The notes under the pieces were generated by a model. The model saw only the letters and a list, made by a program, of their open reading frames with translations. It was not told the origin of the DNA and searched no databases. This document shows, one piece after another, positions 367 to 64,000 of a stretch of 64,000 nt of DNA. Numbering within the stretch: position 1 is the first letter of the stretch; each line of letters begins with the position of its first letter. Both the position numbers and the translations under genes were made by a program. The stretch comes from Massilia soli (GTDB lineage Bacteria > Pseudomonadota > Gammaproteobacteria > Burkholderiales > Burkholderiaceae_D), in NCBI RefSeq assembly GCF_016809835.1, contig NZ_JAFBIL020000006.1:310001-374000 (forward strand), read 5' to 3'.

Positions 367-1803
367 ATGTTTAGTTTCTTCAAGAAAATTCTTCGCTCGG
401 AAGAGAGTCCGGCGCCTGAGCAAGTCGCGCCGCCAACACCGCCTGCTCCCGCTCCTGTTCCTGCTCCTGTTCCTGTTCCTGCGCCTGCGCCTGCGCCTGC
501 GCCGGCTGAACCTGTGCGCATCGCGCCGCCAGTTGTCGCAGTGCCGCCAGTCGCACTGGCGCCAGTGCCGGTGCCAGCTCCGGTCCCGGCGCCAGCCCCT
601 GCTCCTGCTCCTGCACCTGCTCCTGCACCTGTCGCCGCACCTGCGCCGATTGCCCCGCCAGCGCCGGTTCCAGCACCATCGCCCGTCCAGGTAGCGGCAC
701 CATCACCGGCACCCGCACCGTCGGGCATGTCGCGCCGCTACGGCACCACCTCGACGTTTTCGCCACCGCCAGTGCTGCAGCCGGCGCCGGTCGCGCCGCC
801 GCCGGTAATCCAGCCGCCTGCACCAGTGCCGGTCCCCGAGCCAGTCGCGCAAGCCGCGGAGCTGATTCCCGAGACCGCCGAGCGCCTCGGCAGCGAAGCA
901 GACCGGAAAAAATCCTGGATGGACCGCCTCAAGGCCGGCCTGTCGAAGACCTCCAGCAATCTGAGCCTGTTGTTCGTCGGCGCGCGCATCGACGAGGACC
1001 TGTACGAAGAACTCGAAGCGGCGCTGCTGATGTCCGACGCCGGCATGGACGCCACCCAGTACCTGCTGGATGCGCTGCGCAAGAAGGTCAAGGAAGACAA
1101 GCTGCTCGACGCCGCCGAGGTCAAGGCCGCGCTCAAGGTCTTGATGACCGACATGCTGCGCCCGCTCGAGAAACCGCTCGAACTGGGCCGCTACGAACCG
1201 CTGGTGATGATGATCGCGGGCGTCAACGGCGCCGGCAAGACCACCACCATCGGCAAGCTGGCCAAGCATATGCAGACCTACCACCAGTCGGTGCTGCTGG
1301 CTGCGGGCGACACCTTCCGCGCCGCCGCGCGCGAACAGCTGATGGTCTGGGGCCAGCGCAACAACGTCACCGTGATCTCGCAGGAGTCGGGCGACCCGGC
1401 TGCCGTCGCCTTCGATGCGGTCCAGTCGGGCAAGGCGCGCAAGATGGACGTGGTCATGGTCGATACCGCAGGCCGCCTGCCGACCCAGCTGCACCTGATG
1501 GACGAACTGCGCAAGATCAAGCGCGTGATCGGCAAGGGCATGGAAGGCGCCCCGCACGAAACCCTGCTGGTCATTGACGGCAATACGGGACAGAACGCGC
1601 TGGCGCAGGTCAAGGCCTTCGACGACGCGCTGACCCTGACTGGCCTGGTCATCACAAAACTCGACGGCACCGCGAAAGGCGGCGTGCTGGCGGCGATCGC
1701 ACGTACCCGCCCGGTGCCTGTTTATTTCATCGGCGTAGGCGAGAAAATCGAAGACCTGCAGCCATTCAAGGCTGACGAATTTGTCGAAGCGCTGCTCGGA
1801 TAA
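367..1803 (+). CDS. ftsY: Signal recognition particle receptor FtsY
   Basis: GTPase that docks the SRP-ribosome complex at the inner membrane for co-translational insertion. The 478-residue protein has a short basic start (FSFFKKILR), a long Pro/Ala-rich linker to about residue 170, then the N and G domains. G motifs are visible: GVNGAGKT at 285-292, DTFRAAAREQL, DTAGR at 366-370 and TKLDG at 430-434. The low-complexity linker stands where E. coli FtsY has an acidic A domain and is variable in the family. It heads an ftsY-ftsE-ftsX operon with six bases before ftsE, as in many Proteobacteria. The leader at 259-366 has a TAAAAT box at 292-297 and a small hairpin at 318-336. Confidence 0.96.
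   Translation: MFSFFKKILRSEESPAPEQVAPPTPPAPAPVPAPVPVPAPAPAPAPAEPVRIAPPVVAVPPVALAPVPVPAPVPAPAPAPAPAPAPAPVAAPAPIAPPAPVPAPSPVQVAAPSPAPAPSGMSRRYGTTSTFSPPPVLQPAPVAPPPVIQPPAPVPVPEPVAQAAELIPETAERLGSEADRKKSWMDRLKAGLSKTSSNLSLLFVGARIDEDLYEELEAALLMSDAGMDATQYLLDALRKKVKEDKLLDAAEVKAALKVLMTDMLRPLEKPLELGRYEPLVMMIAGVNGAGKTTTIGKLAKHMQTYHQSVLLAAGDTFRAAAREQLMVWGQRNNVTVISQESGDPAAVAFDAVQSGKARKMDVVMVDTAGRLPTQLHLMDELRKIKRVIGKGMEGAPHETLLVIDGNTGQNALAQVKAFDDALTLTGLVITKLDGTAKGGVLAAIARTRPVPVYFIGVGEKIEDLQPFKADEFVEALLG
436..714 (+). repeat. Pro/Ala/Val codon repeat tract inside ftsY
   Basis: The DNA is a run of degenerate hexamers of the CCTGCT / CCTGTT / CCTGCG / CCAGCG type, coding for alternating Pro and Ala/Val in the FtsY linker. 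Such tracts are prone to slippage, and the opposite strand shows a spurious Gly/Ala open frame because of the same periodicity. The borders are approximate. Confidence 0.7.
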
Positions 1804-59271: not shown

Positions 59272-60234
59272 ATGGCAGTTTTTACCGCGGTCGGGCTGGG
59301 TGAGCTTACCCAGTGGATCAAGCAGTTCCCACTCGGCAACGCACTTGCGCTCAGAGGCATCGCTTCCGGCATTGAGAACAGCAATTTCTTCCTGACGACC
59401 GAGCGCGGTGAGTATGTGCTCACCATCTTCGAGAACCTTGGTTTTGACCAGCTGCCGTTCTACCTCAACTTGATGAACCACCTCGCGCTGCGCGGCATTC
59501 CGGTGCCCGCGCCGGTCGCCAATGACCGTGGCGAGCTGGTAGTGCCGCTGCAGGGAAAGCCTGCCGCCATCGTCAGTAAGCTCGACGGCAGTTCGCAGAT
59601 GGATCCGCAGCCGGCGCACTGCGCCGCCGTTGGCGCGATGCTCGCCAAAATGCACGTGGCCGGAAGCGACTTCCCGATGCAGCAGTCCAACCTGCGCGGC
59701 CTCGACTGGTGGAACGAGACCACGCCCGCGGTGCTGCCGTACCTGGACGACGCCGATGCCCACCTGCTGCGCGCCGAGATGCACTTCCAGCAAGCCTTCC
59801 ACGGCTGCGCGCATTACGCCGCACTGCCGCGCGGCCCGATACACGCCGACCTGTTCCGCAATAACGTGATGTTCGTCGGCGAGCAGCTGACCGGCTTCTT
59901 CGATTTCTATTTCGCCGGCTGCGACACCTGGCTGTTCGATGTCGCCGTCACCGTCAACGACTGGTGCATCGACCCGGACAGCGGCGTGATCGACCGCGCG
60001 CGCGCACGCGCGATGCTCGACGCGTATCACGCCGAGCGTCCGTTCACGCACGACGAACAGGCATCCTGGCAGCCGATGCTGCGCGCCGCCGCGCTGCGCT
60101 TCTGGCTGTCACGCCTCTACGATTTCCACCTGCCGCGCGAGGCCGAGATGCTGACCCCGCACGACCCGACCCATTTTGAGCGCATCCTGCGCGAACGACT
60201 CGCCACACCGGCACCGGAGCTGTTTCATGAATAA
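59272..60234 (+). CDS. thrB: Homoserine kinase, type II (ThrB)
   Basis: Phosphorylates homoserine in threonine synthesis. The 320-residue protein belongs to the aminoglycoside-phosphotransferase-like fold, not the GHMP fold of E. coli ThrB. The catalytic loop is [13 protein letters not shown] and the metal site [11 protein letters not shown]. Its stop overlaps the start of the next membrane protein gene by eight bases. Confidence 0.94.
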
Positions 60235-61009
60235 GATACCAGCGCGCGAAGGCTGGAACTGGGTCAAGCGTGGCTTTGCCCTGTTCCGCAAGCAGCCGCT
60301 GGGCCTGGCCGCGCTGTTCTTCGGCTATGTCCTGATTACCGTCGCCCTCGGCCTGGTGCCGCTGGTCGGCAAACTGCTGTCCTACCTGCTGGTGCCGATG
60401 TTTACGGTCGCCTTCATGCAGGGCTGCGCCAACGCCGAAGCGGGCAAGCGCGTCCATCCGGGCCTGCTGCTGACGGGCTTCCGCTCGCCGCACTCCGCAA
60501 CATTGTTCAAGTTGGGCATGGTCTACCTGCTGCTGGCGGTGCTGGCCATTGCCGCCTCCACGCTGGTCGATGGCGGCTTGTGGCTGCAGATCCTCTTGAA
60601 CCAGGTCGAGCAGGAGGCGATCGACCCGAAGACATCGTCGGTGGGCGCGGCGATCCTGTTTACCGCCTTTGCCCAGCTGGTCACCTTCGTGCTGCTCGCG
60701 TTCACCGGACCGCTGGTTCACTGGCAGGGCATGGGCGTCGGCAAAGCGGTGTTCTACAGTGTGGTCGGGATCTTTGGCGCGGCCAAGTCGTTCGCGGTAT
60801 TCGCGCTGGCGTGGTTCGGCATCAGCGCGATCATCGGCCAGGTGGTGGCGCTGATTTTTGGGCGCACGCAGATGTTCCAGACGGTGCTCATCCCGGTATC
60901 GCTGATCTACACGATCGCCGCGTTCTGCTCGTTCTTTGCGGTTTATTGCACCCTGTTCGGCGCACCGGAAGCCGAACCGGCGAAGCCGGTTGCGGCCGAC
61001 GAAGCCTGA
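60227..61009 (+). CDS. BPSS1780 family membrane protein
   Basis: A 260-residue membrane protein with about six helices, beginning [23 protein letters not shown] and containing the conserved [24 protein letters not shown]1780-type proteins follow thrB in many Burkholderiales and have no assigned function. Start MNKIPA at 60227 lies inside the end of thrB. Its 3' end (from about 60953) has a partial copy at 61241-61261. Confidence 0.9.
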
Positions 61010-61095
61010 CCCCGTCATTCCCGCGCAGGCGGGGATCCATGCGGCGCATTGCTCCAGCGACGACCTGTAGGTTCCCGCCTGCGCGGGAACGACGT

Positions 61096-61240
61096 CTAGC
61101 GGGCCACGCGTTCCAGCTTGGCCACTGACAGGTCAAGCGCCTTTATCTGGGCACGCGCATTGCCGCCGCTGCCTCCGATATTCACGGTCACGCCTTCGCC
61201 GAACTTGCTGTGCGCGACTGATTCGCCGATCCGCCAACCC
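61096..61240 (-). pseudogene. Copy A of the uvrD 3' end (fragment)
   Basis: This 145-base stretch matches the end of uvrD (61712-61877) from the stop codon to the triplets for GWRIGES, with a few substitutions and one 21-base in-frame deletion (the seven codons between ARAQ and the final KxLDLSVAK). It is fused at a CCC microhomology to 21 bases of the BPSS1780-type gene end. Confidence 0.9.
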
Positions 61241-61310
61241 CTGTTCGGCGCACCGGAAGCCTGCCCCCGTCATTCCCGCGCAGGCGGGAATCCATGCGGC
61301 GCATTGCTCC

Positions 61311-61376
61311 CGCCGCTGCCTTCGATATTCACGATCACGCCTTCGCCGAACTTGCTGTGCGCGACTGATTCGCCGA
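61311..61376 (-). pseudogene. Copy B of the uvrD 3' end (internal fragment)
   Basis: A 66-base match to the uvrD segment coding for FGESVAHSKFGEGVIVNIEG. It lacks the stop end and is joined directly to the left arm of a REP-like unit, so a deletion has removed the right arm and the uvrD tail. Confidence 0.85.
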
Positions 61377-61477
61377 ACCGGCAAAGCCTGAACCCGTCAT
61401 TCCCGCGCAGGCGGGAATCCATGCGGCGCATTGATCCAGCGACGACCTGTAGGTTCCCGCCTGCGCGGGAACGACGT

Positions 61478-61611
61478 TTAGCGGGCCACGCGTTCCAGCT
61501 TGGCCACTGACAGGTCAAGCGCCTTCATCTGGGCACGCGCATTGCCGCCGCTGCCTTCTATATTCACGATCACGCCTTCGCCGAACTTGCTGTGCGCGAC
61601 TGATTCGCCGA
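61478..61611 (-). pseudogene. Copy C of the uvrD 3' end (fragment)
   Basis: A 134-base match to uvrD from the stop codon (TAA here instead of TAG) leftward, carrying the same 21-base deletion as copy A. It ends at CGCCGA, where the sequence crosses into a GAACCGGC word resembling the BPSS1780-type gene end. The shared deletion shows copies A and C have a common ancestor. Confidence 0.9.
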
Positions 61612-61711
61612 ACCGGCAAAGCCTGGCCCCGTCATTCCCGCGCAGGCGGGAATCCATGCGGCGCATTGTCCAGCGACGACCTGTGGATTCCCGCCTGCGC
61701 GGAAACGACGT

Positions 61712-64000
61712 CTAGCGGGCCACGCGTTCCAGCTTGGCCACTGACAGGTCAAGCACCTTCATGCCGGCGCGGCCGAAGTTAATCTGGGCACGCGCATTGC
61801 CGCCGCTGCCTTCGATATTCACGATCACGCCTTCGCCGAACTTGCTGTGCGCGACTGATTCGCCGATCCGCCAACCCGGTCCGCTGGTGGACTTCTGGGT
61901 GATCTGCTGGGCGATCTTGTTGTCCGATCCGCCGTTGAACTTCGCGTCATCCCACGCCGATTTGCGGTTGCCGAACCACTGCGTCTGCACGCGCGGGGAC
62001 AGCCATTTGAGCGCTTCCTCGGGCAGTTCGTCGAAGAAGCGCGACTTCATGTTGTAGCGCGTCTGGCCATGCAGCATGCGGGTCTGCGTGAAGCTCATGT
62101 ACAAGCGGCGGCGCGCGCGCGTGATCGCCACGTACATCAGGCGCCGCTCTTCGTCGACGCCATCTAGCTCGCGCGAGCTGCTCTCGTGCGGGAACAAGCC
62201 TTCCTCAAGCCCGGTGATGAACACCGCGTCGAACTCCAGGCCCTTGGCCGAGTGCACCGTCATCAGCTGCAGCGCGTCCTGCCCTGCCTGCGCCTGCGCG
62301 TCGCCCGCTTCGAGCGATGCGTGCGACAGGAAAGCCGACAGTGGCGACATCACGGTGGCCAGCGGCACGTCGGCGTCGAGGATCTCGAAGCCATCCTGGT
62401 TGACGATCGCTTCACCGGCCTGCGCCTGCGCTTGCGGGCCGAGGTGCGCGGGCGCGCCCTGGCCGAAGCCTTCTTCCTGCACGAAGTGGGTTGCAGCGCT
62501 GACCATCTGCTCGAGGTTTTCGATGCGGTCTGCGCCTTCCTTTTCGTTCTGGTAGTGCGTCAGCAGGCCGCTCGATTCGAGCACCACGCGCACCATTTCC
62601 GGCAGCGACAGCTGCTGGGTCTCGAAACGCGCGCCTTCGATCAGGCGCACAAAGCTGTTCAGCGACGAGCCGCCCTTGCCTGCCACGTAAGGCACCGCCG
62701 CATACAGCGACACGCCGTACTGGTCCGCCGCAGCTTGCAGTTGCTCGATGGTGCGCATGCCGATGCCGCGGGTCGGGAAGTTCACCACCCGCAGGAACGC
62801 CGAATCGTTGTGCGGGTTATCCATCAGCTGCAGGTACGCGATGGCGTGCTTGACCTCGGCGCGCTGAAAGTAGCGCTGGCCGCCGTAGACGGTGTACGGC
62901 AGGCCGGCTGCAAACAGCGCATGCTCGATCACGCGCGACTGCGCGTTGGAGCGGTACAGGATCGCGATGTCGCTGCGCGCCGCGCCCTCTGCCATCAGGC
63001 TCTTGGCTTCCTCGATGATCCACTGCGCTTCTTCGAGGTCGGACGAGGCTTCGTAGATGCGTACCGGCTCGCCGTGGCCGGCGTCGGTGCGCAGGTTTTT
63101 GCCGAGGCGCTTGCTGTTATTGGCGATCAGCTGGTTGGCGCTGTCGAGGATGTGGCCGTGCGAGCGGTAGTTCTGCTCCAGCTTGATCAGGTTCTCGACC
63201 TGGAACTCGCGCTCGAACGCGCTCATGTTGCCGACGTTGGCGCCGCGGAAGGCGTAGATGCTCTGGTCATCGTCGCCGACCGCGAACAGCGCCCCGCCGT
63301 GGCGCTCGCCATGGCCGGCCAGCAGCTTGAGCAACCGGTATTGCAGGTCGTTGGTATCCTGGAACTCGTCGACCAGGATATGGCGGAAGCGGGTCTGGTA
63401 ATGCTCGCGCAGCGGCTGGTTGCGCGACAACAGCTCGTAGCAGCGCAGCAGCAGCTCGGCGAAATCGACCACGCCTTCGCGCTGGCACTGCATGTCGTAC
63501 AGCTCATACAGCTCCACCATGCGGCGCTCGATCGGATCGAACGCTTCGACCTGGCTGGCGCGCAGCCCTTGGTCCTTGGCGTTGTTGATGAAGTACATCA
63601 GGTTCTTCGGCGGGTACTTTTCGTCGTCGACGTTGTTCGCCTTGAGCAGCCGCTTGATCATCGACAGCTGGTCTTGCGAGTCGAGGATCTGGAAGGTCTG
63701 CGGTAGCGCCGCGTCGCGGTAGTGGGTGCGCAGCAAACGGTTCGACAAGCCGTGGAAGGTACCGATCCACATGCCGCGCGTGCTGATCGGCAGCATTGCC
63801 GACAGGCGCGTGGTCATCTCCTTGGCGGCCTTGTTGGTAAACGTCACCGCCATGATCCCGGCCGGCGAGACCTGGCTGGTCTGGATCAGCCAGGCGATGC
63901 GGGTGGTCAGCACGCGCGTCTTGCCCGATCCGGCACCCGCCAGGATCAGGGCGCTTTGCTGCGGCAGGGTGACGGCGGCGAGTTGTTCGGGATTGAGATT
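61712..64000 (-). CDS. uvrD: UvrD/Rep-type superfamily I DNA helicase (5' end beyond window)
   Basis: ATP-dependent 3'-5' helicase for mismatch and excision repair and replication restart. 762 residues are visible; the frame is still open at 64000, where NLNPEQLAAVTLPQQ is close to the usual start, so only a few residues are missing. Motifs are AGAGSGKT (Walker A), LVDEFQDTND, GDDDQSIYAFRGA, QNYRS, and TVHSAKGLEFDAVF. The C-terminal Tudor-like domain (GESVAHSKFGEGVIVNIEG, ending LSVAKLERVAR) is the region copied three times downstream. Its natural 3' flank is a REP-like palindrome (61628-61709). Confidence 0.95.
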   Translation of the reverse strand, partial: NLNPEQLAAVTLPQQSALILAGAGSGKTRVLTTRIAWLIQTSQVSPAGIMAVTFTNKAAKEMTTRLSAMLPISTRGMWIGTFHGLSNRLLRTHYRDAALPQTFQILDSQDQLSMIKRLLKANNVDDEKYPPKNLMYFINNAKDQGLRASQVEAFDPIERRMVELYELYDMQCQREGVVDFAELLLRCYELLSRNQPLREHYQTRFRHILVDEFQDTNDLQYRLLKLLAGHGERHGGALFAVGDDDQSIYAFRGANVGNMSAFEREFQVENLIKLEQNYRSHGHILDSANQLIANNSKRLGKNLRTDAGHGEPVRIYEASSDLEEAQWIIEEAKSLMAEGAARSDIAILYRSNAQSRVIEHALFAAGLPYTVYGGQRYFQRAEVKHAIAYLQLMDNPHNDSAFLRVVNFPTRGIGMRTIEQLQAAADQYGVSLYAAVPYVAGKGGSSLNSFVRLIEGARFETQQLSLPEMVRVVLESSGLLTHYQNEKEGADRIENLEQMVSAATHFVQEEGFGQGAPAHLGPQAQAQAGEAIVNQDGFEILDADVPLATVMSPLSAFLSHASLEAGDAQAQAGQDALQLMTVHSAKGLEFDAVFITGLEEGLFPHESSSRELDGVDEERRLMYVAITRARRRLYMSFTQTRMLHGQTRYNMKSRFFDELPEEALKWLSPRVQTQWFGNRKSAWDDAKFNGGSDNKIAQQITQKSTSGPGWRIGESVAHSKFGEGVIVNIEGSGGNARAQINFGRAGMKVLDLSVAKLERVAR

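Follow-up and report, generated by a model that had tools for sequence, protein, structure and literature searches.

Tandem clusters of REP sequences that carry flanking DNA with them are already known, and the array that lies downstream of uvrD in Massilia soli is a further case. In Pseudomonas fluorescens SBW25, Bertels and Rainey (2011, PMC3116915) described 16 ordered REPIN clusters; according to the legend of their Figure S7, near-identical REP pairs are tandemly repeated there together with flanks from both sides, which is also the arrangement of our array. Those clusters differ from ours in being built from another type of REP and in that RAYT genes are found beside three of them. The CGTC-1 family of REPs includes the neisserial dRS3 elements (Di Nocera 2013, PMC3733652); in the sections of that survey cited here no transposase is reported to adjoin the CGTC REPs, the enzyme that serves them is left as an open question, and large clusters of the GTAG type are already described. 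Finally, the intergenic mosaic elements of Neisseria, as presented in the passages considered here (PMC9778887, PMC3898611), consist of units of 50-150 bp placed between ATTCCC(N8)GGGAAT repeats to form intergenic arrays, a layout that is the same as that of the uvrD array.

The array between uvrD and its convergent neighbour

The window (the whole stretch of 64,000 nucleotides that was analysed) contains the intact 3' end of uvrD on the minus strand (61712..64000, continuing past the window edge, with UvrD_C, UvrD-helicase and PcrA_UvrD_tudor domains in 61712-63913). Facing it on the plus strand is an open reading frame, gene A (60227..61009; no Pfam family at E 0.001 for the 259 aa from 60230), whose 3' end adjoins the array. 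The approximately 700 bases that separate the two genes hold three full REP pairs, one halved pair and three partial uvrD ends, organized as four blocks in tandem, each made up of a neighbour-tail scrap, a hairpin pair and a uvrD tail, the fourth block being the end of the intact uvrD itself. From left to right, REP pair 1 (61013..61094), two inverted CGTC-type REPs that form one long hairpin (fold z −6.1), is followed by uvrD tail copy A (61096..61240, minus strand, 21 bases missing) and, at junction J1, by a scrap of gene A recognized by repeat comparison and junction check (61239..61261, plus strand, 23 bases, family D6). Next comes a single REP found by pattern match (61268..61294, plus strand), which is the left half of pair 2, its right half being deleted; 61268-61312 has only a weak fold (z −1.45). 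It precedes the truncated copy B (61309..61376, minus strand), the scrap at J2 (61372..61388, plus strand, 17 bases, family D5) and REP pair 3 (61395..61476, fold z −8.0). The series is completed by copy C (61478..61611, minus strand), the scrap at J3 (61607..61623, plus strand, 17 bases, family D5, with the same breakpoint as J2), and REP pair 4 (61630..61710, fold z −8.1), which adjoins the stop codon of the real uvrD. The tail copies and the scraps at J2 and J3 were delimited by repeat comparison.

An earlier sequence-only reading of this DNA had claimed three partial uvrD 3' ends downstream of the real gene, each beside a REP-like unit and one of them fused to a scrap of the neighbour. The three ends are indeed present (approximately 61096-61240, 61309-61376 and 61478-61611, with the real gene ending at 61712 on the minus strand), but they are part of a larger set of four blocks when the real end is counted. 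The REP-like units are there as well, in the form of inverted REP pairs that span 81-82 bases when complete, one of which is halved (61268-61294), and the fusion is real, but a gene A scrap occurs at all three internal junctions (J1, J2, J3) rather than at one. The same reading derived copies A and C from one deleted ancestor: the 21 bases missing from both are kept in the real uvrD and in all five relatives aligned, which supports their common descent. Copies A, B and C differ from each other by substitutions, deletions and different ends. Chance is excluded as an origin of the array, because the window contains 8 REP matches (7 of them inside the array) versus 0 in 100 shuffles, and because a 248-nt repeat at 94% identity is present.

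The REP has the form CGTC ATTCCCGC GCAG GCGGGAAT CCA, that is, a tag, an 8-bp stem, a 4-nt loop and a tail, as in the definition of CGTC-1 REPs given in the part of the 2013 survey used here (PMC3733652). With up to 3 mismatches this pattern has 139 matches in the genome, versus 0 for a backward control. Exactly two REPs are found in 63 of the 91 clusters of this genome, the mostly dimeric state of CGTC-1 REPs, and those of the window are inverted pairs; the complete pairs that were folded (n = 5) form long hairpins with z from −6.1 to −8.7, as REPINs do. REPs flanking a RAYT gene, the other mark of a REPIN, were absent from the 3.5-3.8 kb around each of the three Y1 genes of this genome, and a CGTC REP was near none of 15 Y1 transposase loci, 3 of them from this genome. 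We rejected amplification driven by a RAYT on the grounds that the three Y1 genes of this genome have no CGTC REP nearby. A Y1 transposase-type gene with one in-frame stop is located at G000:C11:313540-313866. Judged by sequence, the repeat of the uvrD array fits the CGTC-1 REPs of the dRS3 family; the likeness extends over tag, stem, loop, tail, paired units, location at gene 3' ends and the lack of an adjoining Y1 transposase, as these traits are given in the same sections of the survey (PMC3733652).

Relatives and loci of the same plan

The comparison of this interval among relatives for copy number, which had been proposed from the sequence alone, was carried out with 19 other uvrD loci (L002-L020), 17 of which could be read for at least 1500 bases past the gene. 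A single uvrD tail was found in 19/19; in two of these (L015 and L019) the contig stops 181 and 12 bases beyond the match, respectively, so they carry little weight. Of the 19 uvrD sites one has a REP match, namely the single pair in the closest relative, G003; the site in G008 bears a short inverted repeat satisfying a loose REP test, and those in G001, G014 and G015 have no REP in the stretch aligned. The last 270-310 bases of gene A are about 83% identical to G003 and G008. In a search of the genus (17 genomes) the uvrD array was found in the Massilia soli genome only. In G018, the genome of L019, the start of a second contig also bears part of the uvrD tail. Matches to the array elsewhere in its own genome are to REP stretches only, among the matches listed (of 21).

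The plan of the array recurs at other loci of the genome. We scanned for local repeats 68 stretches around REP matches plus the window (69 stretches, 493 kb), drawn from 100 of the 139 matches, the other 39 all having 3 mismatches; these stretches contain 197 matches to a loose REP core, while a broader pattern has 286 in the whole genome. Repeats qualified if they were direct, comprised at least 35 non-REP bases at an identity of at least 78%, and were no more than 3 kb apart. In these stretches, all chosen around REPs, 9 qualifying places were found in the 82 kb near REPs (within 400 bp) versus 1 (L095) in the remaining 411 kb. The near-REP places are L084, L097, L103, L105, L116, L118, the uvrD array and two weak ones (L091 and window 442-648). 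The weak repeat of the window consists of 63 bases (442-504 and 586-648, 81% identical) close to a lone REP.

Two of these places are built like the uvrD array: L084 (C36:152.9k) has 4 copies of both gene tails around a REP pair between convergent MYG1-like and DUF4272 genes, and L116 (C38:15.3k) has about 5 such copies between convergent genes for a TonB receptor and a short-chain dehydrogenase. A tandemly repeated REP pair with flanking DNA, the mark of an ordered REPIN cluster, is found at uvrD, L084 and L116 alike. The spare copies of L116 have common short deletions that the real genes lack, as in the uvrD array; no such shared deletion was seen in the copies of L084. The counterpart of L084 has no REP in the stretches aligned from G003, G008 and G001, and that of L116 has, in the stretches aligned, one REP pair in G003 and none in G008. 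At L103 a 70-base unit is repeated directly after a phosphoglucomutase-type gene, presumably glmM, and L097, L105 and L118 contain a longer element with its own ends, repeated. This element, which is also present at L172 in G003, carries REPs, has ends like GTCACCGTTAAGTGTGGAA and occurs in tandem in two species. A REP-pair array of period 119 with at least 4 full pairs (L389:99-559) reaches the contig end of G000:C7.

When the 91 REP clusters of the genome were placed in context by a rough gene call, 28 turned out to lie between convergent genes. Clusters with at least 4 REPs number 6 of 91: four between convergent genes (uvrD, L084, L116 and L090), one in a unidirectional and one in a divergent setting. 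Clusters of CGTC-1 REPs are called rare, save in Neisseriae and Wolbachia, in the relevant part of the 2013 survey (PMC3733652), to be set against these 6, one of which is the locus of a nuclease gene. The latter, L090, was rejected as a fourth large convergent array: what the REPs flank there is a GIY-YIG gene. The same method applied to G003 (64 stretches and 84 REP clusters, the stretches being drawn from the listed exact matches of contigs C2 to C14) yielded a single tandem array, made of the longer element, at L172, a stretch chosen with that array already in view; the other near-REP repeats, L328, L332 and L361, on inspection proved to be repeated coding stretches in two cases and a repeated tRNA-like stretch in the third. 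There were no gene-tail arrays among the 84 clusters scanned. Since G003 has 272 matches to the same REP pattern, versus 286 in Massilia soli, and yet 0 gene-tail arrays in the part scanned, the number of REPs is no predictor of amplification, and the notion that more REPs make more arrays was discarded.

A GIY-YIG nuclease gene beside the REPs

The gene at L090:2476-3117 (G000:C37, approximately 327.3-328.0 kb) encodes a small nuclease with a GIY-YIG domain and is enclosed by CGTC REPs. To find relatives, named genomes were scanned with a ten-protein alignment of this kind, and the best 80 of 482 loci, from several phyla, were inspected with a generic CGTC-REP test. For these best 80 of 482 loci a REP is present within 350 bp in 72/80, and REP hits number 178 in 54 kb near the genes versus 47 in 441 kb far from them. 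Within 200 bp, a REP with its tag pointing outward is found upstream in 55 of these 80 loci and downstream in 53, and 40 loci have one on each side, while the opposite orientation is found in 13, 19 and 6, respectively. In the 40 pairs the left stem equals the right one in 27, versus 16.5 expected and a maximum of 24 in 10,000 shuffles; the pairs whose left stem is other than the commonest match in 6/18. Distant flanks and Y1 loci served as controls for proximity; UvrC loci (0/16 with REPs) are no control, as their flanks lie inside a long gene.

In a sample at the level of the order, the nuclease gene is present in 34/200 genomes. At least 5 REPs of one pattern occur in 24/34 genomes with the gene versus 17/166 without it, counts that ignore relatedness, and a REP is within 350 bp in 20/29 loci (own locus excluded), while only 6 of these loci have an outward-tagged REP on either side. 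Every one of the 10 genus genomes whose gene of this family is intact has at least 48 REP matches; the 7 that lack it have 0 to 16, save for G003 with 272. The genus has 13 stand-alone GIY-YIG loci, and a REP lies near 9 of them; once L188 and L206, which are without the family motif, and the broken L207 are set aside, the proportion is 9/10. Six order-level genomes have the gene and no REP of the searched pattern; one of them, G102 (L313), has REPs with another stem beside the gene. At the site of the gene the flanking matches are about 100 bases apart in G001, and in G003 the site holds about 0.8 kb of other sequence; both genomes are without the gene. G148 has two GIY-YIG copies (C1:552723-552995 and C1:851665-851937), with a different REP stem variant beside each.

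In these data the association of nuclease and REPs is strong. G003 and the gene-bearing genomes without the searched REP pattern weigh against a simple partnership. We take the gene to match the Ssn family, GIY-YIG enzymes said to go together with a repeat that is abundant in Neisseria and many other bacteria; a 2025 paper in Nature Communications reportedly describes how this family cuts single-stranded DNA at the abundant Neisseria repeat. No study linking a GIY-YIG nuclease to REPs was recognized by title or abstract among the literature matches listed, and we make no claim that the link is unpublished.

Origin of the arrays and their place among known systems

The joins between gene tails provide a record of how the blocks may have been made. 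At J1 the uvrD and neighbour sequences share 2 bases, CC; J2 and J3 are one identical junction, with 5 shared bases, GCCGA, common to both parents. The L116 junction has 2 shared bases, CG, and the single L084 junction that was matched exactly has 0. The breakpoints fall within the coding part of the parent genes, approximately 40 to 170 bases away from the REPs. As with J2 and J3, the same junction recurs within L084 and within L116. From their sequence, the junctions look like those of tandem duplication at short homologies, and the recurrence of identical junctions looks like the outcome of later unequal exchange.

Overall, we favor a REP-spanning, short-homology tandem duplication followed by decay of the spare copy and then by unequal exchange, and give this reading a probability of about 0.8. 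The starting point would be a CGTC-1 REP pair (a REPIN) flanked on either side by the stop codon of a convergent gene. A duplication in tandem whose breakpoints fall in both coding tails, with 0-5 shared bases, would copy the REP pair together with both gene ends; the spare block, released from selection, would lose short segments; and unequal exchange between the repeated REP pairs would multiply the decayed block. We infer this order of events. Stalling or nicking at the hairpins is a plausible trigger of the duplication, as suggested by their association with the arrays, and the palindromes inside the duplicated block probably supply the homology for later growth in copy number. The array is most likely neutral, and we propose no host function for it. 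Several observations weigh against this explanation: the order of units (J1, J2, J3) requires several exchanges, the matched L084 junction has no microhomology, and G003, with nearly as many REPs, has no gene-tail array in the part scanned. The stepwise tandem duplication of a block of neighbour tail, palindrome and uvrD tail, as the sequence-only reading had it, is upheld by the single tail in relatives and by the repetition of the block plan at two other loci; its founding event, recombination or template switching at the palindromes, is not supported, as the breakpoints are in the coding tails and away from the REPs.

A different origin would have the small REP-bounded GIY-YIG nuclease nick single-stranded REPs, with local template-switch repair then producing the tandem blocks. 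This genome does have a gene of that type between CGTC REPs, the proximity of the two extends to relatives (72/80 of the best 80 of 482 loci and 20/29 at the order level, versus 0/15 Y1 loci), and at least 48 REP matches are found in 10/10 genus genomes with an intact gene versus 1/7 without. Ssn enzymes, being of the GIY-YIG type, are said to cut single-stranded DNA at such repeats, which would suit the proposal. However, what these data link to the gene is REPs rather than arrays: in G008 the gene is present and the listed part of its 62 REP matches includes no gene-tail array, G003 is without the gene and yet rich in REPs, and the breakpoints are away from the REPs. We consider this origin unlikely. 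A broader proposition, that all three arrays are newborn mosaic arrays with units derived from adjacent convergent gene tails and initiated by the REP-bounded nuclease cutting REP hairpins, is in our judgment quite unlikely.

Selection might instead retain the array as a strong bidirectional terminator or as a buffer of supercoiling between convergent genes, and all three gene-tail arrays are indeed found in that setting. CGTC REPs are common there regardless (28/91 clusters; see also the corresponding part of PMC3733652), relatives do without the array, the copies are truncated, one REP pair is halved, and one hairpin would be enough, so that we regard such a role as highly improbable. As for an artefact of short-read assembly, the genome is a draft of 39 contigs and a similar REP array sits at the end of contig C7, but the copies differ by substitutions and deletions inside a contig of 475 kb, and three separate loci are alike. 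Because the copies and their ends differ, and two similar arrays exist elsewhere in the assembly, we give an artefact almost no credence.

With duplication, decay and exchange as the preferred reading, the arrays offer a view of before and after: sister species have no hairpin pair or one, versus four to five blocks here, and across the loci one can follow how gene ends are made into intergenic tandem repeats by hairpin repeats. The Ssn enzymes have reportedly been studied for natural transformation and not for tandem arrays, and the 2025 paper is said to have already paired such nucleases with such repeats. The association of nuclease and REPs bears on the question of the enzyme for CGTC REPs, as raised in the pertinent part of the 2013 survey (PMC3733652). 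With respect to the SBW25 clusters, whose flanks are not described as coding tails of both neighbours in the passages cited (PMC3116915), the flanks here are identifiable gene ends. The units of the neisserial mosaic elements, whose origin between dRS3-type repeats is left unexplained in the portions of that literature cited here (PMC9778887, PMC3898611), likewise differ from those of Massilia soli, which are recognizable ends of two adjacent genes; a hypothesis suggested by this, and open to test, is that the spacer units in dRS3-type mosaic arrays also come from gene tails. What sets the uvrD array apart from these systems is that its flanks come from the identifiable ends of both neighbours, in a REP family said to form clusters only rarely except in Neisseriae and Wolbachia.
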